From Tepidicaulis marinus (GTDB lineage: Bacteria; Pseudomonadota; Alphaproteobacteria; Parvibaculales; Parvibaculaceae): a stretch of 64,000 nucleotides of DNA. Location of the stretch: the NCBI RefSeq assembly GCF_000739695.1, contig NZ_BBIO01000003.1, positions 62,001 to 126,000 on the forward strand, given 5' to 3'. The notes under the pieces were generated by a model that made no database searches, had not been told where the DNA came from, and saw nothing but the letters and a program-made list of their open reading frames with translations. This document shows positions 14,248-27,595 of this stretch, one piece after another. Every line of letters begins with the position of its first letter. Within the stretch, counting starts at the first letter, position 1. A program made the translations under genes and the position numbers.

Positions 14248-14368
14248 CATAGGATAGACTGACCGTTTTCCACTTATTAAGACTAGTGAGTGATAACTAT
14301 ACCCCGCGCGTGGTGGCGTCTTTTCATTGGCCGGGACAAAGCCGTTCCGGCACATCGTTGCGGGGGCA

Positions 14369-16531
14369 ATGGCAATGGCGCCAATGAGCGGGCTCGATAT
14401 CGCCTGGGTTCTGATCTGCACCGTTTTGGTGCTGCTCATGCAGGCAGGCTTCACCTGTCTTGAGACCGGGCTCATCCGGGCCAAAAATTCTATCAATGTC
14501 GCGGTGAAGAACGTCGCGGATTTCTCGCTCGCCAGTCTTGTCTTCTGGGCGGTGGGGTACGGACTGATGTTCGGCCCGAGTGCTTTCGGTCTCGTGGGCC
14601 ATGACGGCTTCATGCTGGCGGGCCAGGCGGAAGTTACGCCCGAGCGTTCCAGCGAGATGGTGTTCTTCTTTTTCCAGCTTGCCTTTTGCGGCACGTCAAT
14701 CACGATTGTCTCGGGCGCTGTTGCCGAGCGGATGAGCTTTAAAGGCTATCTCGCCGCAACCTTCATTCTCTCGCTTCTCATCTATCCGATCATCGGCCAT
14801 TGGGCCTGGGGCGGGCTTGACTCGGGCTCGGCCACGGGCTGGCTTGAAAAACTCGGCTTTATCGATTTTGCCGGCTCGACGGTCGTTCACAGTGTCGGCG
14901 GCTGGGCGGCGCTTGCCGCGATCCTCGTTATCGGCCCGCGCCTTGGCCGCTTCGGGCAAGGCGGGCGCGCCATCGAGCCGCATAATCTGCCGCTGGCGGC
15001 CCTTGGCATGTTCCTCATCTGGATCGGCTGGTTCGGTTTTAACGGCGGCAGCACGCTCGCCGTCAATCATGTGGTGCCCGTGGTGCTCGTTCATACGCTG
15101 CTTGCCGCCTCCGCGGGCGGTATCGCGGTGATGGGGCTGACCTGGGCAATAGATCAGCGCCCGGATGTGGGCGCGACCGTGAACGGCGTTCTGGCCGGGC
15201 TCGTTGCGATTACCGCAAGCGCGCATATCGTCAGCACGGGCGGTTCCGTTCTCATCGGCGCCATGGGCGGTTTCGTCTCGGTGCTTGCCGCCAAGCTGCT
15301 CGAGCGGCTGGAAATCGACGACGCAGTGGGCGCGGTGCCGGTGCATCTGGCCGCCGGTATTTGGGGCACGCTGGCCGTCGCGCTTTTCGGCGAGATGTCT
15401 TATTTCCCCAATGGCGCAAGCCGGTTCGAGCAATTCACCGTGCAGCTCACCGGCGTTGCCGCGGCAGGGGCCTATGCCTTCACGCTTTCCTTCGCGCTGA
15501 TGAAACTCATCGATCCTTTCCTTGCCATGCGTGTGCGCGCCCGGGCCGAGCGTGAAGGGCTCAATATTTCCGAACATGGGGCAAGCAGCGCGCTTTCCGA
15601 ACTTTTGGGGCGGATGGAAGACCAAAGCCGGCGCGGGGATTTTTCCCACAAGGTGCCCGTCGAGCCTTTCACGGAAGCAGGCGAGCTTGCCTTCCGCTAT
15701 AATCTCGTTCTCGACCGCTTCAACAGCGAGGTCAGCGCCCATGAAAAAGCGGCGGCGGCGTTGCGCGAAGCGCGCGATGCGGCCGAAATCGCCAATGCGG
15801 CAAAGTCCGAATTCCTGGCCAATATGAGCCACGAGCTTCGAACGCCGCTCAATGCGATCATCGGTTTTTCCGAGATCATGACGGGCGGCATGTTCGGCGA
15901 GATCGAGAACCCGCAGTATAAAGAATATATCCACGACATTCACCGTTCCTCCAACCATCTGCTCAGCCTGATCAACGACATTCTCGATCTCTCCAAGATC
16001 GAGGCGAACAAGATGGAGCTCGCGGATGAAGATCTTGATCTCGGCGAGGAAGTGCGCGGCTGCGAGCGGCTGATCCGCTGGCGCGCGCAAGAAGCGAAAC
16101 TTGTTTTCGATGTGCTGATCGACGAAGATCTGCCCCGGCTGATCGCCGACCGGCGGGCGCTTCGCCAGATGATCCTCAATCTCGTCTCCAACGCGGTGAA
16201 GTTTACGCCGGAAGGGGGCCGTGTGGTCCTCTCGGTGGAGCGGGAAGTGGATGGACGCATCGCGATTTCCGTCGCCGATACCGGCATCGGTATTGAGAAA
16301 TCGGATATCCCGAAAGCGCTGACGCCGTTCCAGCAAATCTCCACCGGCGACACGGTCTATATGGCAGATGGCACGGGGCTCGGCCTGCCGATCACCGCGG
16401 CGCTCGCGCGGCTGCATGGGGGCACGGTGGTGATCCGTTCGGAGCCCGGGCGCGGCACGGAAGTGACGGTGCGCCTTCCCGCCTCCCGTCTTCAGGAACG
16501 GCCTGCGAAGAACAAGATCGAATTCGTTTAA
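14369..16531 (+). CDS. ammonium transporter-histidine kinase fusion (Amt-HK)
   Basis: This ~720-aa protein joins an 11-helix Amt/Rh ammonium channel (residues ~5-400) to a histidine kinase. The Amt part keeps the aspartate and first pore histidine in DFAGSTVVH (Asp ~166, His ~174) and the second pore histidine in GAVPVHLAAG (~326). The linker contains LNISEHGAS, also known from Amt-GGDEF proteins. The kinase has the H-box SHELRTPLNAIIGF (His ~488), N-box NLVSNAVKFTPEGG, G1 VADTGIGI and G2 GTGLGLPI. Amt-kinase fusions are known as membrane ammonium sensors. No response regulator is adjacent. The start is uncertain: ATG codons at 14369, 14375 and 14384 and a TTG at 14327 are all in frame. Confidence 0.93.
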   Translation: MAMAPMSGLDIAWVLICTVLVLLMQAGFTCLETGLIRAKNSINVAVKNVADFSLASLVFWAVGYGLMFGPSAFGLVGHDGFMLAGQAEVTPERSSEMVFFFFQLAFCGTSITIVSGAVAERMSFKGYLAATFILSLLIYPIIGHWAWGGLDSGSATGWLEKLGFIDFAGSTVVHSVGGWAALAAILVIGPRLGRFGQGGRAIEPHNLPLAALGMFLIWIGWFGFNGGSTLAVNHVVPVVLVHTLLAASAGGIAVMGLTWAIDQRPDVGATVNGVLAGLVAITASAHIVSTGGSVLIGAMGGFVSVLAAKLLERLEIDDAVGAVPVHLAAGIWGTLAVALFGEMSYFPNGASRFEQFTVQLTGVAAAGAYAFTLSFALMKLIDPFLAMRVRARAEREGLNISEHGASSALSELLGRMEDQSRRGDFSHKVPVEPFTEAGELAFRYNLVLDRFNSEVSAHEKAAAALREARDAAEIANAAKSEFLANMSHELRTPLNAIIGFSEIMTGGMFGEIENPQYKEYIHDIHRSSNHLLSLINDILDLSKIEANKMELADEDLDLGEEVRGCERLIRWRAQEAKLVFDVLIDEDLPRLIADRRALRQMILNLVSNAVKFTPEGGRVVLSVEREVDGRIAISVADTGIGIEKSDIPKALTPFQQISTGDTVYMADGTGLGLPITAALARLHGGTVVIRSEPGRGTEVTVRLPASRLQERPAKNKIEFV

Positions 16532-18238: not shown

Positions 18239-19129
18239 ATGGCCGATCAGTCCGCCCGCCCGCGCCGCAGCGTGCTTTATATGCCCGGATCGAACGCCCG
18301 GGCGCTGGAAAAAGCAAAGAGCATTGCCGCCGACACGCTCATCCTGGATCTGGAAGATGCGGTGGCCCCCGATGCCAAGGAAGAAGCGCGTGCGCAGGTG
18401 ACCTCCGCCGTTGCGGGCGGCGGCTATGGCAAGCGGGAAATCGTGATCCGCGTGAATGGGCTCGACACGCCCTGGGGCGCGGCCGATATCGAGGCGGCGG
18501 TTGCCGCCGGGCCGGACGCCATATTAGTGCCGAAGATCAGCTCGCCTGAAGATGTGACGCGCGCGCATGAGGCGCTTGAAAAGGCGGGCGCGGGCCCCGA
18601 GCTGCAGCTTTGGGCGATGATGGAAACGCCGCTCGCCATGCTGCGCGCCGAAGCTATTGCCGCGATGAGCCAGACGACGCGGATGAGCGTCTGGGTAATG
18701 GGCACGAACGACATCGCCAAGGAGCTGCGCTGCGCCCATACGCCCTTGCGGCTGCCGATGATCACGTCGCTCGGGCTTTCCATGCTGGCGGCGCGCGCTT
18801 ATGGCATTGTGATGCTCGACGGCGTTTATAACGACATCAAGGATGAGGACGGCTTCAAGGAGATGTGCGTGCAGGGCCGCGAGCTCGGCTTTGACGGCAA
18901 GACTCTGATCCATCCCTCGCAGGTCGGTCCCTGCAACGAGATTTTTGCGCCCGATCCGGAAGATGTCGCTTTCTCGCGCGCCATTATCGAAGCCTTCGCC
19001 CAGCCGGAGAACAAAGGCAAGGGCGTTTTGAAGGTGGAAGGGCGCATGGTCGAGCTGCTGCATGAAGAAATCGCCCGGCGCACCGTTGCCATTGCCGAGG
19101 CGATCGAGGAACTTGAGAAGAGCGCATAG
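18239..19129 (+). CDS. mcl2: CoA-ester lyase, (S)-malyl-CoA thioesterase-like (Mcl2 type)
   Basis: The 296-aa protein belongs to the HpcH/HpaI-CitE superfamily (TIM barrel, Mg-dependent). It has SVLYMPGSNARALEKA, LDLEDAVAPDAKEEAR, RVNGLDTPWG, LWAMMETPLAML, MGTNDIAKEL and GFDGKTLIHPSQV. These segments resemble the Rhodobacter Mcl2 (S)-malyl-CoA thioesterase more closely than the Mcl1 lyase. In the ethylmalonyl-CoA pathway this step releases malate from malyl-CoA. The neighbouring mesaconyl-CoA hydratase supports that role. A generic citrate-lyase-beta or citramalyl-CoA lyase activity cannot be excluded from sequence alone. Confidence 0.85.
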   Translation: MADQSARPRRSVLYMPGSNARALEKAKSIAADTLILDLEDAVAPDAKEEARAQVTSAVAGGGYGKREIVIRVNGLDTPWGAADIEAAVAAGPDAILVPKISSPEDVTRAHEALEKAGAGPELQLWAMMETPLAMLRAEAIAAMSQTTRMSVWVMGTNDIAKELRCAHTPLRLPMITSLGLSMLAARAYGIVMLDGVYNDIKDEDGFKEMCVQGRELGFDGKTLIHPSQVGPCNEIFAPDPEDVAFSRAIIEAFAQPENKGKGVLKVEGRMVELLHEEIARRTVAIAEAIEELEKSA

Positions 19130-19174: not shown

Positions 19175-19675
19175 ATGAGCAAATCTATCGAGGACTATGT
19201 GGTTCGCACCGGCGCTTTCAGTACCGAAGGCGGGTTCCGGTTTGCTCATCCGCTCAATCCCAATTCACGCATCGAGATGCGCCAGCTTTCCCGGCAGGCA
19301 GGCATGGAGCGGGTACATCTTACCCTCGCGCGCGTGCCGGCAGGCAAGGAAAGCTTTATTGCCCATGCGCATACGACCGAAGAAGAGTTTATCTTCATTC
19401 TGGAAGGTGAAGGGTTGCTGCGGATCGACGGCGAGACGACCATGGTGCGCAGCGGCGATTATGTCGGCTTTCCGGCGGACGGCGCCGTGCATCATCTCTC
19501 CAACCCCGGCACGAGCGATCTTGTCTATCTGATGGGCGGTGAGCACCTGAAAGCGGATGTCTCCCGGTTTCCCGATATCGGCAAGGTTGGCTTTTGGGCG
19601 GACGGCATTATGACCTATGTGGATGAAGATGCGGGCCAGCGTTTCGTGCCGGATGATTTCGTCGCGAAGGACTGA
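19175..19675 (+). CDS. cupin-domain protein in the ethylmalonyl-CoA cluster
   Basis: The 166-aa protein is a single-domain cupin. Motif 1 reads AHAHTTEEEFIFILEGEG (His-x-His and Glu metal ligands) and motif 2 reads GDYVGFPADGAVHHLSN with a further His. The ATG at 19175 has GAGAGGA upstream. A GTG start at 19136 would add residues unlike the family. It lies between mcl2 and the mesaconyl-CoA hydratase gene with short gaps (45 and 48 bp), so all three are probably one operon. The substrate is unknown. It could be a small dioxygenase or isomerase-like enzyme, or a sensor. Confidence 0.8.
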   Translation: MSKSIEDYVVRTGAFSTEGGFRFAHPLNPNSRIEMRQLSRQAGMERVHLTLARVPAGKESFIAHAHTTEEEFIFILEGEGLLRIDGETTMVRSGDYVGFPADGAVHHLSNPGTSDLVYLMGGEHLKADVSRFPDIGKVGFWADGIMTYVDEDAGQRFVPDDFVAKD

Positions 19676-19723: not shown

Positions 19724-20770
19724 ATGACGAAAACCAATCCGGGTAATTTCTTCGAGGATTTCAAGATCGGGCAGGTGCTTGCCCATGCAACGCCGCGCAC
19801 GGTGACGGAAGGCGATGTCGCGCTTTACACCGCGCTCTTCCCGGTGCGTTTTGCGCTGCAATCTTCCGATGAGTTTGCCCGGGGCGTCGGCTATGCCCGC
19901 GCGCCCATCGATGACATGCTCGCCTTTCATATCGTCTTCGGCAAAACCGTTCCCGATATTTCACTGAATGCGGTTGCCAATCTCGGCTATGCCGATTGCC
20001 GTTTCCTAAAACCCGTCTTTCCGGGCGATACGCTCTCGGCGAGTTCTGAGGTGATCGGCCTGAAAGAAAATTCCAACGGAAAGACCGGCGTCGTCTATGT
20101 CCGCTCCACCGGGCGCAATCAAGCGGGCGAGGCCGTGCTCGATTATGTGCGCTGGGTGATGGTGCGCAAACGCGATGAGGCCTCCCCTGCGCCCGCACCC
20201 CAAGTGCCGGAGCTGCCCAGTGCGGTCGGCCCTTCGGCTATCGCGCTGCCCGAGGGTACGGATTTCTCCAGGATCGACCTTGCCGCCACCGGCTCGCCTT
20301 TCAAATGGGGCGATTATGAAGCCGGTGAAAAGATCGACCATGTGGACGGTGTGACGATCGAGGAAGCCGAGCACATGATGGCGACCCGGCTTTATCAGAA
20401 CACCGCCAAAGTGCATTTCAACCAGTTTACGGAAGGCAAGGGCCGTTTCGGGCGCCGGCTTATTTATGGCGGCCACGTGATTTCCCTTGCCCGGGCGCTT
20501 TCCTTCAACGGGCTCGGCAATGCCTTTCTGGTTGCCGCGATCAATGGCGGACGGCATGTCGCGCCCTGCTTCGGCGGCGATACGGTGTTCGCCTGGTCTC
20601 AGGTTCTGGAAAAGGCGCCGTGCCCCGGCCGGAACGATCTCGGGCTCCTGCGCATTCGCACCATTGCCGCCAAAGACCGGCTGTGTCACGATTTCCCCGG
20701 GATGGAGAACGAGGGGGATGGCGAGGGTATCATTTTGGACCTTGATTATTGGGTTCTGATGCCCCGCTAG
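19724..20770 (+). CDS. mch: mesaconyl-CoA hydratase (MaoC-fold)
   Basis: Mesaconyl-CoA hydratase interconverts mesaconyl-C1-CoA and beta-methylmalyl-CoA in the ethylmalonyl-CoA pathway. The 348-aa product has two hot-dog domains and closely recalls the Rhodobacter enzyme: TNPGNFFEDFKIGQ, HATPRTVTEGD, LQSSDEFARGVGYARAPIDD, FGKTVPDISLNAVANLGYAD and VIGLKENSNGKTGVVYV. Length is normal for the family (about 340). A SpoIIAA-like gene starts 6 bp after its stop, so that small protein is very probably co-expressed. Its presence argues that this organism assimilates C2 units without relying on isocitrate lyase. Confidence 0.92.
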   Translation: MTKTNPGNFFEDFKIGQVLAHATPRTVTEGDVALYTALFPVRFALQSSDEFARGVGYARAPIDDMLAFHIVFGKTVPDISLNAVANLGYADCRFLKPVFPGDTLSASSEVIGLKENSNGKTGVVYVRSTGRNQAGEAVLDYVRWVMVRKRDEASPAPAPQVPELPSAVGPSAIALPEGTDFSRIDLAATGSPFKWGDYEAGEKIDHVDGVTIEEAEHMMATRLYQNTAKVHFNQFTEGKGRFGRRLIYGGHVISLARALSFNGLGNAFLVAAINGGRHVAPCFGGDTVFAWSQVLEKAPCPGRNDLGLLRIRTIAAKDRLCHDFPGMENEGDGEGIILDLDYWVLMPR

Positions 20771-20776
20771 GGCAGC

Positions 20777-21157
20777 ATGAAGAAATTCACTTTCTACGAA
20801 GTGAAGATCGAGGAAATCGAGCCCGGTATCGTCGTCACCGATTACGGCAGCCAATTGGTTACGCCCGTCCTGCTTGCCGATCTCCTCGACAGGCTTGCCC
20901 GCGAATGGGGCGATACGAAAATCGCCATGTTGACCATCGCGCCCAGCGCCACGGAGATGGGGAAATTCACTTCCGTGGTCGAAGAGAAGAACGCCTCGGG
21001 TTTTATCATTGCTTCCGCCGTTCTGGCCTCGAACCAGCTGCAGAGAGAGCTTATCCGCGTCGTGCACGGGCAAAAACAGACGGCTCACCCGCGGCGCATT
21101 TTCGAAGACAAGGAAGAAGCGATCGCCTGGCTGCGTGAAGAGCTGCACGGGCGGTGA
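20777..21157 (+). CDS. SpoIIAA/STAS-like small protein, tandem paralogue 1
   Basis: This 126-aa protein is the first of three tandem paralogues. It begins FTFYEVKIEEIEPGIVVTDYG and ends with FEDKEEAIAWLREEL. The final F-x-D-x-E-x-A-x-x-WL signature is typical of the SpoIIAA-like (STAS/SEC14-type) family, whose members are one-domain alpha/beta proteins of mostly unknown role. It starts 6 bp after the mesaconyl-CoA hydratase stop, so it belongs to that operon. No catalytic motif is seen, and the family assignment rests on the C-terminal signature and predicted fold pattern. Confidence 0.65.
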   Translation: MKKFTFYEVKIEEIEPGIVVTDYGSQLVTPVLLADLLDRLAREWGDTKIAMLTIAPSATEMGKFTSVVEEKNASGFIIASAVLASNQLQRELIRVVHGQKQTAHPRRIFEDKEEAIAWLREELHGR

Positions 21158-21362
21158 CAGGCGCCCTGTCAATGATGCAATTCTTCTTCTACCATTTGTT
21201 TCGTACACAGTTTTGTGAGAACACGGCGTAAGGCAGCTTTTGTCGTATTGCCGTGATTGCCGCGCGAAAAAGATTCGGCCAGTCTTTTTCTATCGATGGG
21301 GCAAGGGGGGTGCGGGCGGCGCAGAGAACTTGAGGCGGTTCCCGGTCTGCCGGCAGAAGACA

Positions 21363-21743
21363 ATGAAGCAATTCCGGTTCTACGAAGTCGAGATCAATGA
21401 AATCGAGCCGCGGATCATTTCCCTCGATTACGGCAATTATCTTGTAACGGCGGATATCGTCCGCTCGCTGCTTCTGAAAATCAAAAAGGATTGGCCGGGG
21501 CAGAAAGTCGCTTTGCTGTCCGCGGCAGAAGCCATCTCCAACCTCGACAAGGTCGCGTATGTGCTCGAAGAGCTGAAGGCTTCCGAGTTCATCTGCGCGG
21601 GCGGCATTCTGGTCCGTAACCGTCTGCAGGCTGATATTGCCCAGGCGTTCGTCAAAATACAGGTAGCGGGAGCATATGCGCAGAAAATCTTCGTCGACAA
21701 GGAGGAGGCACTTGTCTGGCTGAGGGAGCGGCTGGGCGACTGA
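21363..21743 (+). CDS. SpoIIAA/STAS-like small protein, tandem paralogue 2
   Basis: This 126-aa paralogue begins FRFYEVEINEIEPRIISLDYG and ends FVDKEEALVWLRERL, aligning along its length with the genes before and after it. The ATG at 21363 gives the start that matches the paralogues. A longer frame from 21240 would add 41 residues with no counterpart. It is separated from paralogue 1 by 205 bp with no evident gene, so it may have its own promoter. The middle segment (FICAGGILVRNRLQADIAQAF) differs most from paralogue 1, which suggests divergence after duplication. Function unknown. Confidence 0.65.
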   Translation: MKQFRFYEVEINEIEPRIISLDYGNYLVTADIVRSLLLKIKKDWPGQKVALLSAAEAISNLDKVAYVLEELKASEFICAGGILVRNRLQADIAQAFVKIQVAGAYAQKIFVDKEEALVWLRERLGD

Positions 21744-21811
21744 CCGGCTTGCTGAGCGTCCGCCGCTGTGTCACTCTTTTAATCAGGGTACTGCGCGGTG
21801 GATGAGCCTTC

Positions 21812-22204
21812 ATGGGTACGGCACTAAAGCAGCTTCGGTTCTATGAGGTTGAGATTCGCGAGCTCGAGCCGCGGATTTTGGAAATCGATTATGGAACGCA
21901 GATCATTACCGCCGAGCTTTTGGAGGCGGTGATCGAGAAAGTGCACAAGGAATGGCCGGATTATAAGGTGGCTATTCTCGTGCGCGCCGCTTCCGCCGTG
22001 GATCTGGGGCGTGTTGCCAAAGTGGTGGAGGCGGAAAAGCTCGGCCGGACGACAGCCGCCGTTGCCATTCTCGGTCATAGCAAGCTGGCGCAGATGCTGG
22101 GCAATCTCTTCATGCGTTATGAGCGCAGTCCTTATCCCAACCGGCTTTTCACTGACCGGGAAGCGGCCATTGCCTGGCTGCGCGCGCAGCTAAGGGATGC
22201 GTGA
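21812..22204 (+). CDS. SpoIIAA/STAS-like small protein, tandem paralogue 3
   Basis: The 130-aa third paralogue reads LRFYEVEIRELEPRILEIDYG near its N terminus and FTDREAAIAWLRAQL at its C terminus. The central AILGHSKLAQMLGNLFMRY and the terminal signature are the best match of the three to classical SpoIIAA-like proteins. The ATG at 21812 adds five residues to the N terminus compared with its sisters. It lies 68 bp after paralogue 2 and converges with an MHYT-domain kinase 37 bp further on. A role in membrane or signalling interactions is possible but not shown. Confidence 0.65.
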   Translation: MGTALKQLRFYEVEIRELEPRILEIDYGTQIITAELLEAVIEKVHKEWPDYKVAILVRAASAVDLGRVAKVVEAEKLGRTTAAVAILGHSKLAQMLGNLFMRYERSPYPNRLFTDREAAIAWLRAQLRDA

Positions 22205-22241
22205 GCCGTTCGGCCTTGATGTCTGGCTGCGCGCGGGCAGT

Positions 22242-23873
22242 CTAGATCAGCGTTACCTTGCGCTCTTTCTGAGCGGTGCCCGTCTGGGTAGCCGCCTGGG
22301 TACCCGTCTGCATGCCCGCCTGGATGGTTGCCGCAAGCACCCGCCCGGCCGGAAACACCAGGCTGACGCAGGTTCCCACACCCACTTCGCTCTCCAGTTC
22401 CAATCTGCCGCCATGCAATTCCATCAGCCGGCGCGAAAGCGGCAACCCGAGGCCCGTGCCTTCATATTGCCGGTGGAGCGAATTGTCGATCTGACCGAAG
22501 TTTTCCATCGCCAGCGCAATGTCTTTCCGGGCGATGCCGATACCGGTATCGCGTATGTCGATGGAAAGCTCGCCGGTGTCGCGTAACTGCGCGGAAATAG
22601 CGACCGACCCGCCTTTGGGCGTGAACTTCACCGCATTGGAGAGAATGTTGAGGAGGATTTGGCGCACCCGCCTCTCGTCCCCATCGATCAGCGGCAAATG
22701 CGCCGTCTCCGACACATGAACCGATATCTCGCCGCTTTCGGCCAGATGCGAAATCATGCGGTGCGCGGCGTCGATGGCCATACCCACTTCCAGCGGTGCC
22801 TCTTCAAGCTCCAGGCGGCCCGCATCGAGCTTTGAGAAATCCAGAATGTCGTTGATGAGAGCGAGTAAGTGTCTGCCGCTTTCGTGAATATGACCGGTAT
22901 ATTCCCGGTAATGATCATTGGGCAGCGGGCCGAAATGCTCATGCGCCATCATCTCGGAAAAGCCGATAATGGCGTTGAGCGGGGTTCTGAGTTCATGGCT
23001 GATGGCTGCCAGGAATTGCGATTTGGCCTGGCTGCCGGCTGCCGCAGCTTCCAAAGCGCTTAAGAGATTGTCGCGCACCGCTTCCAGCTCGTCCCGCGTG
23101 ATCTCCAGTTCTTCGGCATAGCGGCGCATGCGTTCGGCTTCTTGCGCGTTGCGCCCGGCAAGATGCTTGTCGAAAACGGCCATCAGAAAGGCTGTGCTCA
23201 GGATCATTGCGGAGAGCATGGCGGTGAAAACCGCCAGCCATTTGGGATCCACCGTGGCATAGGAAAAAGGCATTGCCGGGTCCGGCACCAGCGTGACTGC
23301 CGTCATGCCGGTGAAATGCAGCCCGCAAATGGCGAGGGTGAACAGCGCCGTGCCGACGAGATGCCGGCTCACCCCATCCAGAATGCGAATGAGATTGAAA
23401 GCCAGCGCCATGACGGCGAGCCCGATGATCCAGGAGGCGGCGACATAAGCGCCGTCCCACTCGATATGACCTGAAAGGCGCAGTGCCGACATGCCGGTAA
23501 AATGCATGAAGCCGATGGCCGCGCCGACAGTCAGCCCGCCCAGCGTCAGCCGGTTCATATAAAGGGCAATGCCCGCGCCCAGCGTGCAGAGCGACACGGA
23601 AATGAAAACGGAAAGCACCGTCAGCGGAACGTCATAAGCAACAGGCAAGGCGGACTGGTAAGCCAGCATGGCGATGAAATGCGTCGCCCAGATGCCGGCG
23701 CCTGCCACAAGCCCCGTGCCTAGCAGCCAATAAAATTTAGGGCGGCCTTCGGCAACCCACGCCCGGAAGAATAGATCGATGGAGGTAAAGCATGCGATCA
23801 GGCAGACCGTGGCGGCGAGGCCAACGAGCCAGAGATTGTGCTCGTTCGTGATGCACTCCAGTACCGTAATCAT
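22242..23873 (-). CDS. MHYT-domain sensor histidine kinase
   Basis: The 543-aa protein has a seven-helix MHYT sensor domain (residues ~10-235) with the three signature repeats THFIAM (~64), MHFTGM (~123) and LHFTGM (~185). MHYT domains are proposed to bind copper and sense O2, CO or NO. A coiled-coil linker, a HisKA domain with SHELRTPLNAIIGF (His ~293) and an HATPase domain follow, with NILSNAVKFTPKGG, IRDTGIGIA and GTGLGLPLS. The last 25 residues are a low-complexity Gln/Thr/Gly tail. There is no receiver domain and no adjacent response regulator. It faces the STAS-like trio tail to tail. Confidence 0.94.
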   Translation of the reverse strand: MITVLECITNEHNLWLVGLAATVCLIACFTSIDLFFRAWVAEGRPKFYWLLGTGLVAGAGIWATHFIAMLAYQSALPVAYDVPLTVLSVFISVSLCTLGAGIALYMNRLTLGGLTVGAAIGFMHFTGMSALRLSGHIEWDGAYVAASWIIGLAVMALAFNLIRILDGVSRHLVGTALFTLAICGLHFTGMTAVTLVPDPAMPFSYATVDPKWLAVFTAMLSAMILSTAFLMAVFDKHLAGRNAQEAERMRRYAEELEITRDELEAVRDNLLSALEAAAAGSQAKSQFLAAISHELRTPLNAIIGFSEMMAHEHFGPLPNDHYREYTGHIHESGRHLLALINDILDFSKLDAGRLELEEAPLEVGMAIDAAHRMISHLAESGEISVHVSETAHLPLIDGDERRVRQILLNILSNAVKFTPKGGSVAISAQLRDTGELSIDIRDTGIGIARKDIALAMENFGQIDNSLHRQYEGTGLGLPLSRRLMELHGGRLELESEVGVGTCVSLVFPAGRVLAATIQAGMQTGTQAATQTGTAQKERKVTLI

Positions 23874-24129: not shown

Positions 24130-24534
24130 ATGGCTGACTCACCTTCCGCTTCCCGGCCGCTTTCGCCGCATTTGGGCATTTACCGCAAAATGCTCACCAT
24201 GATGATGTCGATCGTCCATCGCATTACCGGCGCCGCGCTCTATTTCGGTACTTTGCTGCTTGCCTGGTGGCTGATCGCCGCGGCGAGCGGCGCGGAGGCT
24301 TACGACGTCTTCTCGGCCCATGCCGGTTCCTGGTACGGGCGGATCGTGCTCTTCGGTTACACCTGGGCACTGATCCACCACATGCTGGGCGGGCTGCGCC
24401 ATCTGGTCTGGGACATGGGCAAAGGCTTCGACCTGCGCCTTGTCGAATGGATGGCGCGCGGCACGGTTGCAGGTTCGGTCATTCTCACCGTGGTGGTCTG
24501 GGTGATCGCCTATCAAATGATGGGAGCGCTTTGA
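24130..24534 (+). CDS. sdhC: succinate dehydrogenase cytochrome b556 subunit
   Basis: SdhC anchors succinate dehydrogenase (complex II) in the inner membrane and helps bind haem b and ubiquinone. The 134-aa product starts with [26 protein letters not shown], the family signature (S-x-x-H-R-x-T-G). Three hydrophobic helices follow, and the haem-ligand region [15 protein letters not shown] is near residue 80. Its stop overlaps the sdhD ATG (TGATG). The 256-bp gap upstream, shared with the divergent MHYT kinase, should hold the operon promoter, but no convincing -35/-10 pair is seen. Confidence 0.96.
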
Positions 24535-24917
24535 TGAGCGATATGCGCACACCTTTGAGCCGCGTGCGCGGCCTTGGTTCGGCAAAAGCCGGGACGGAAC
24601 ATTTCTGGCTGCAGCGGCTGACGGCGATCGCCAATATTCCGTTGGTGATTTTTCTTCTGGCCTCGCTCGTGGCGCTGGCCGGGGCGGACTATGAGACCGT
24701 GCGGGCCTATCTTTCCATGCCGCTCGTCACCGTCATCGTGCTGGCGCTGATCGTCTCCGGCATCTGGCATATGCGCCTCGGCATGCAGGTGGTGATCGAG
24801 GATTATGTGCACGGCGAGAATCTGAAACTGCTCTCGATCATCGGGAACAATTTCTTCGCGCTCGCGGTCGGGCTTGCCTGCGTCTATGCGGCGCTGAAGC
24901 TCGGCTTCGGTTCTTAA
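24534..24917 (+). CDS. sdhD: succinate dehydrogenase membrane anchor subunit
   Basis: SdhD is the second membrane anchor of complex II. The 127-aa product has [25 protein letters not shown] at the N terminus, three transmembrane helices, and [20 protein letters not shown], the conserved haem/quinone segment. The ATG at 24534 overlaps the sdhC stop by one base. An earlier frame start inside sdhC is not protein-like. sdhA follows after 79 bp. Confidence 0.96.
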
Positions 24918-24996
24918 AATTCGGGCGCTGATGTCCGGTCCTTGCGCCGGCTTTCAGGGTCATTTGACGTTCAATTCATAAAAGGCAGTGTCCGGC

Positions 24997-26790
24997 ATGA
25001 GTGCCTCAAAAGCATATGAATTCCAGGATCATTCCTTCGACGTAGTGGTGGTCGGCGCCGGTGGCGCGGGGCTTCGCGCCACGCTTGGCTGCGCTCAGGC
25101 CGGTTTGAAGACCGCCTGCATCACCAAAGTGTTTCCCACCCGCTCGCACACGGTTGCAGCTCAGGGCGGCATTTCCGCCTCGCTCGGCAATATGGGGCCG
25201 GATGACTGGAAATGGCATATGTACGACACCGTCAAAGGGTCGGACTGGCTGGGCGATCAGGACGCCATCGAATATCTCTGCCGCAATGCGCCGAAAGCCG
25301 TTTACGAGCTTGAGCATTTCGGTGTGCCGTTCTCGCGGACGGAAGAAGGCAAGATCTATCAGCGCCCCTTCGGCGGCATGACCACCGAATACGGCAAGGG
25401 CATCGCGCAGCGCACCTGTGCTGCCGCCGACCGGACGGGCCATGCGATCCTGCACACGCTTTATGGTCAGAGCCTGCGCTATGACGCGGAATTCTTCATC
25501 GAGTTTTTCGCCATCGACCTCATCATGAGCGATGACGGGCGCTGCGTCGGTGTCGTCGCGCTGAAAATGGATGATGGCACGCTGCACCGCTTCTCCGCCA
25601 AGCAGACGATCCTGGCGACGGGCGGTTATGGCCGCGCTTATTTCTCCGCAACCTCGGCGCATACCTGCACGGGCGACGGCAATGCCATGGTGCTGCGCGC
25701 CGGCCTGCCGTTGCAGGATATGGAATTCGTGCAATTCCACCCGACGGGGATTTACGGTGCCGGCTGCCTGATCACGGAAGGCGCGCGCGGCGAAGGCGGC
25801 TATCTCGTCAATTCCGAAGGCGAACGCTTCATGGAGCGCTATGCGCCGTCCGCCAAAGACCTTGCCTCGCGCGACGTGGTCTCCCGCTCCATGACCATGG
25901 AAATTCGCGAAGGGCGCGGTGTGGGCGCAGGCAAAGACCATATCTTCCTGCATCTCGATCACCTGGACCCGGATGTGCTCGCCTCGCGCCTGCCGGGGAT
26001 TTCCGAATCGGCCCGCATCTTTGCCGGTGTCGATGTGACCAAGGAACCGATCCCGGTGCTGCCGACCGTGCACTACAATATGGGCGGTATCCCGACGAAC
26101 TATCATGGCGAGGTGATCTCGGGCAAAGGCGGCGCGGACGATATCGTGCCCGGCCTGATGGCGATCGGGGAAGCGGCCTGCGTTTCCGTGCACGGGGCGA
26201 ACCGCCTCGGCTCCAACTCGCTGATCGACCTTGTGGTGTTCGGCCGCGCGGCGGGCCTGCGCGCCGCCGATGTGGTCGATCCTGCCGAAAAAGCACCGAC
26301 GCTGCCGAAAGGCGCGGGCGAGAATTCCATTGCCCGTCTCGATCATTTCCGCAACGCGAATGGCTCCACGCCGACCGCCGAGCTGCGCCTTGAAATGCAG
26401 CGGACCATGCAGAATAACTGCGCGGTTTACCGCACGGGCGAGGTTCTGGAAGAGGGCGTCAAGCTCATGGAAAAAGTCCATGCCGCCGCCGACGACATCA
26501 AGGTCACGGACCGCTCGCTGATCTGGAACTCCGATCTCATCGAAACGCTGGAATTCGACAACCTGATCGTTCAGGCCCGCGCGACGATGAACGGGGCGGA
26601 TGCGCGTAAAGAAAGCCGCGGCGGCCATGCCCGTGAAGATTTCCCGAACCGGGATGATGAAAACTGGATGAAGCACACGCTCGCCTGGGTCGATGACAAC
26701 CGCAACGTCACGCTCGGCTACCGCGAAGTGCACAATTACACGCTCTCCAACGAGATCGAGTACATCCAGCCGAAAGAACGTGTCTATTAA
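24997..26790 (+). CDS. sdhA: succinate dehydrogenase flavoprotein subunit
   Basis: SdhA oxidises succinate to fumarate and carries covalent FAD. The ~597-aa product has the dinucleotide-binding [13 protein letters not shown] near residue 15, the FAD-linking histidine in [10 protein letters not shown] (near residue 51) and [14 protein letters not shown]. The active-site segments [30 protein letters not shown] and [22 protein letters not shown] also match. The ATG at 24997 gives the usual MSASKAYEF start. A GTG nine bases earlier is possible. sdhB follows after 25 bp. Confidence 0.98.
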
Positions 26791-26815
26791 GGCTTGAAGG
26801 TAAGGGTTTACGCAA

Positions 26816-27595
26816 ATGGTTGAACTTGCACTGCCGAAAAATTCCCGCGTCACCAAGGGGAAAACCTTCAAGGCGGCACAGGGCGCAAAGAAGGTCCGTA
26901 AATTCCAGGTCTACCGCTGGGATCCGGAAGGCGGGGAAAACCCGCGCATGGATACCTATGAGGTCGATCTCGACAATTGCGGCCCGATGGTGCTCGACGC
27001 GCTCATCAAGATCAAAAACGAAATCGATACGACGCTGACTTTCCGCCGCTCCTGCCGCGAGGGGATTTGCGGGTCCTGCGCGATGAATATCGACGGCACG
27101 AACACGCTGGCCTGCACGAAGGGCATCGACGAGATCAAGGGTGAGGTGAAAATCTACCCGCTGCCGCATATGCCGGTGGTCAAAGACCTCGTGCCGGACC
27201 TGACGAATTTCTATGCCCAGCACGCCTCCATCGAGCCCTGGCTGCAGACGCGCACCGTCGAGCCGGAAAAAGAATGGAAGCAGTCGCCGGAAGACCGGGA
27301 GAAACTCGACGGGCTTTATGAGTGCATTCTGTGCGCCTGCTGCTCGACCTCGTGCCCCTCTTATTGGTGGAACGGCGACCGCTATCTCGGCCCGGCCGTG
27401 CTCCTGCAGGCCTACCGCTGGCTGATCGACAGCCGCGACGAGGCAACCGGCGAGCGGCTCGACAATCTGGAAGACCCCTTCCGGCTTTACCGCTGCCACA
27501 CGATCATGAACTGCGCCAAGGCCTGCCCGAAGGGCCTCAACCCGGCCAAGGCGATTGCCGAAATCAAGAAGATGATGGTGGAACGCCGCGTCTGA
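26816..27595 (+). CDS. sdhB: succinate dehydrogenase iron-sulfur subunit
   Basis: SdhB transfers electrons from FAD to quinone through three iron-sulfur clusters. The 259-aa product has the [2Fe-2S] ligands in [14 protein letters not shown] plus a later Cys (LACTKG). The [4Fe-4S] and [3Fe-4S] ligands are in [16 protein letters not shown] and [17 protein letters not shown]. The start follows AAGGTAAGGG. A terminator 24 bp after the stop ends the sdhCDAB operon. Confidence 0.98.

Follow-up and report, generated by a model that had tools for sequence, protein, structure and literature searches.

In the window, a 64,000-nucleotide stretch of the Tepidicaulis marinus genome, three small STAS-like genes (dufA, dufB and dufC) lie in tandem between the mesaconyl-CoA hydratase gene mch and sdhCDAB. 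We consider it probable that the trio represents a genus-specific tandem triplication, within a variable mch-sdhC interval, of a small non-catalytic binding module, and that dufA is made together with the enzymes of C2 assimilation. The genes concerned are as follows (window coordinates).

18239..19129, plus strand: mcl, HpcH/HpaI-type malyl/methylmalyl-CoA lyase (PF03328; exact substrate inferred from the neighbourhood)
19175..19675, plus strand: cupin protein between mcl and mch (PF07883)
19724..20770, plus strand: mch, mesaconyl-CoA hydratase (PF19315)
20777..21157, plus strand: dufA, DUF7793/STAS-like protein of 126 aa
21363..21743, plus strand: dufB, DUF7793/STAS-like protein of 126 aa
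21812..22204, plus strand: dufC, DUF7793/STAS-like protein of 130 aa
22242..23873, minus strand: MHYT sensor histidine kinase (matches to MHYT, HisKA and HATPase_c domains)
24130..27595, plus strand: sdhCDAB, the conserved right-hand boundary of the mch-sdhC interval

Our data demonstrate the paralogy, family membership, synteny and purifying selection of the trio. The initial annotation described three paralogues of 126-130 aa with two shared signatures and a divergent core, and both the open reading frames and an alignment of the three proteins bear this out: an N-terminal FYEVxIxExEPxIxxxDYG and a C-terminal FxDxExAxxWLR are invariant, and the middle has diverged. Pairwise identity is about 34-43% (38-43% for the dufA protein against its paralogues). 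A genome search with the dufC protein returned dufA and dufB with E-values of about 1e-25 to 1e-26, sequence matches far beyond chance, and no further copies. An earlier start is possible for dufB (TTG at 21240); the ATG at 21363 was taken because the paralogue alignment and the sister species agree on it.

The same array, with the same spacing and the same kinase, is present in MAG UBA4490 (L004), the only other species of the genus searched; a contig scan with the dufA protein, which reaches close relatives only, found one relative. Comparison of these two species by the NG86 method gave dN/dS ratios of about 0.24 for dufA (dN 0.066, dS 0.281), about 0.12 for dufB (dN 0.087, dS 0.738) and about 0.05 for dufC (dN 0.035, dS 0.666), with mch at 0.10 for comparison. 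All three genes are under purifying selection. That selection has kept all three copies despite their divergence suggests that they truly divide labor, a point against explaining the trio by position alone.

The position of the trio was compared across 40 genomes of the family (an order-level search gave the identical 40). A DUF7793-type gene occurs in six of them, mch in all 40. The six are both species of this genus (g1), with three copies each, and four of the seven genomes of the sister genus (g3), with one copy each, immediately upstream of sdhC and 1.6-2.6 kb from mch; in three of these, beta-lactamase-like and TetR genes lie between mch and the DUF7793 gene. Only in this genus does a DUF7793 gene stand directly behind mch. 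With or without a DUF7793 gene, mch and sdhC are on the same strand and 0.2-3.5 kb apart in 12 of 13 contexts, and a PAS_5 protein occupies the interval in some g5 genomes. The interval is thus filled differently among genomes, which marks it as a variable site and makes the closeness of the trio to mch a by-product of a wider synteny. In one sister-genus genome (G009) the intact copy is followed downstream by what is left of a second DUF7793 gene, its 3' end (L016:9383-9514).

These comparisons do not support the earlier proposal that the trio, mch and the kinase form one system, beyond a single genus. That proposal had named in advance what would speak against it, namely orthologues that occur singly and scattered, and outside the genus this is largely the pattern found: single copies beside sdhC in part of the sister genus and none in most genomes of the family. 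The conserved linkage to mch across genomes expected of an ethylmalonyl-CoA pathway component was not found among them. Adjacency of mch and sdhC occurs without a duf gene, just as relatives of the kinase are placed elsewhere without one, so the nearness of the trio to a C2-assimilation gene and to a kinase mostly reflects the layout of the region.

Within the genus, the link between dufA and mch is closer. The mch stop and the dufA start are separated by 6 bp, a gap identical in the second species, which makes co-transcription plausible. Of the claim that dufA is co-expressed with C2 assimilation, the short, conserved gap therefore stands, and co-expression itself is a plausible reading of it. 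A promoter and terminator scan detected sites no more often than in shuffled controls and therefore cannot place the limits of the operon. The GC content of the duf genes is 0.545-0.577 against 0.60-0.64 for their neighbours, but GC3 is similar, and a recent foreign origin is not argued from composition. A plasmid search by translated sequence gave no match.

Regarding the history of the copies, the dufC protein is 43-45% identical to the sister-genus proteins, and those of dufA and dufB are 29-37% identical to them. The simplest reading, which we infer from these sequences, is a tandem triplication within this genus with dufC nearest the ancestral form. A tree joins dufA with dufB (97/95), a join for which the program flags possible long-branch attraction, and leaves the order of dufC and the sister-genus copies unseparated. 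Given both points, copies may instead have been lost in the sister genus.

Under the curated Pfam cut-off of PF25056 (DUF7793; 26 bits), dufC (48.6 bits) and dufB (26.5 bits) are members, and dufA falls just short at 25.2 bits, though it is a paralogue of both. Against PF11964 (SpoIIAA-like; 25 bits), dufC scored 24.8 and dufA 17.7, both under the cut-off, and dufB had no match. PF01740 matched none of the three, the matches of this genome to that profile being on other contigs. The best sequence relative with a solved structure is Arth_0117 (PDB 3bl4; E 0.011, about 28% identity). Two of five models of the dufC protein were usable (pLDDT 77.5 and 71.4; the remainder about 50), and the better one, built on six sequences, has a pTM of 0.75. 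VIA-align 2 matched this model best to the STAS structure 4xs5 (Z 10.3, rmsd 2.9 over 109 residues) and also to RsbS (6jhk; Z 8.7), and Foldseek ranked 3bl4 first at an E-value of 1.7e-3, all Foldseek E-values being above 0.001. The STAS/SpoIIAA-like nature suggested by the initial annotation thus agrees with the PF25056 matches, the near miss to PF11964 and the modelled structure, and we assign this predicted fold to the trio with moderate confidence.

The three proteins resemble DUF7793 proteins in sequence and in being single-domain proteins of about 120-130 aa, but differ in forming three diverged tandem copies with a conserved FYEVxIxExEP N-terminal stretch; the sister-genus proteins have only the EPxI..DYG portion of the longer signature in common with them. 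With the SpoIIAA-like proteins of Shewanella (2ook, 2q3l) they share size, predicted fold (Z 6.3-7.0) and a C-terminal Trp-Leu helix, whereas the cavity and membrane binding are features of the Shewanella proteins, the trio being known from sequence and model. A profile comparison with the PF11964 protein of another genome (G319) gave no significant match, and literature searches on DUF7793, on Arth_0117 and on STAS proteins in connection with the ethylmalonyl-CoA pathway found no paper in the library used.

On the reading that we favor, a single-domain DUF7793 gene would have occupied the variable mch-sdhCDAB interval in part of the family and been triplicated in tandem in this genus, with dufC keeping the most ancestral-like sequence and dufA and dufB diverging further. 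Each protein would most likely be small, cytosolic and non-catalytic and would serve to bind either other proteins or a small hydrophobic or acyl ligand, and at least dufA, judging by its position, would be produced alongside the C2-assimilation enzymes. For finding out what DUF7793 proteins bind, the conserved but diverged tandem trio of this C2-assimilating alphaproteobacterium offers a tractable starting point.

PF25056 is rare among the relatives sampled, all from the phylum to which the window belongs: matches occur in 6 of 385 genomes at class level and in 4 of 398 at phylum level. Two copies occur elsewhere as a tandem pair in G734 and at two loci in G394. The pair in G734, from another family of the phylum, lies directly behind a receiver-TPR protein (L088:5843-8317), an arrangement whose gene order suggests a two-component link there. 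At four loci of f67, an alphaproteobacterial family unrelated to that of the window, a DUF7793 gene lies between a FlK-type thioesterase gene, with which it is convergent, and a thiolase gene (L080:5443-6975, L081:5771-7881, L082:5648-7746 and L105:4358-6553). A CoA-thioester theme common to these neighbourhoods and to mch is a weak lead. If meaningful, it would provide the first functional hint for DUF7793; if not, the locus would be an ordinary gene-family expansion.

A more specific form of the favored reading is that the proteins are CRAL-TRIO-like carriers or sensors of hydrophobic or acyl/CoA-linked ligands in CoA-thioester metabolism. The Shewanella SpoIIAA-like relatives have a switchable nonpolar cavity, which is deep in their open form, and a role as carriers of nonpolar compounds has been proposed for them (PMC2954212). 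Alphaproteobacterial DUF7793 genes lie beside mch here and beside the thioesterase and thiolase in f67. However, the neighbour of the sister-genus copy is sdhC and not an acyl-CoA gene, the four f67 loci may share a single inherited arrangement, and the neighbours in G734 have no relation to CoA; we regard this specific form as unlikely.

The MHYT kinase gene is convergent with dufC, 37 bp apart, and the tested neighbouring genes (14.3-28.3 kb) encode no receiver domain, which confirms the initial description of a kinase facing dufC with no adjacent response regulator. It could be supposed that kinase and trio form a dedicated gas- or redox-sensing module tuning the ethylmalonyl-CoA pathway, each STAS-like protein serving a different input or partner. 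The MHYT domain of CoxC senses CO (PMC11347149), the DUF7793 pair in G734 shows that two-component neighbours occur elsewhere, and the other species of the genus has retained the array along with the kinase, although two species offer little independent evidence. Against this, kinase relatives (about 49% identical over nearly the full length) occur in several g5 genomes in other neighbourhoods and without a DUF7793 match, so kinase and trio are separable; the sister-genus DUF7793 genes have no such kinase nearby; and the kinase gene is convergent, not co-directional, with the trio. A functional tie is probably absent, and the dedicated module is improbable. A conserved membrane protein (MASNENLNEFTL...) is the neighbour of the kinase relative in three g5 genomes (L106:3271-6624, L107:5027-8320 and L108:5370-8809), and this seems to be the normal setting of the relative in those genomes.

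We give very little weight to the conjecture that DUF7793 proteins are STAS-like modules sensing acyl-CoA or acyl groups, whose three copies here would join in a mixed complex that reports on flux between the ethylmalonyl-CoA pathway and succinate dehydrogenase. Highly improbable is a classical SpoIIAA/RsbV anti-anti-sigma partner switch, in which an RsbW-type kinase would phosphorylate, and a SpoIIE-type phosphatase dephosphorylate, the serine with which helix 2 begins: the predicted fold is shared with RsbS, RsbV and SpoIIAA (Z about 7-9), and sequence alignment, used here for residue mapping, puts serines S57 of dufA and S61 of dufC at the beginning of predicted helix 2, but the trio lacks a match to the PF01740 profile of those proteins, the aligned residue is Ala in dufB and S, G, T or A in relatives, the genome has no SpoIIE match, and all PF13581 matches listed lie in frames of at least 456 codons, the size of sensor kinases, none resembling a stand-alone RsbW.

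A second sensor kinase is encoded further upstream in the window (14351-16531, plus strand), where an ammonium transporter (PF00909) is fused to HisKA and HATPase_c. This Amt-type sensor kinase has no receiver domain, and in several genomes of g3 and g5 its homologues are found beside mcl.
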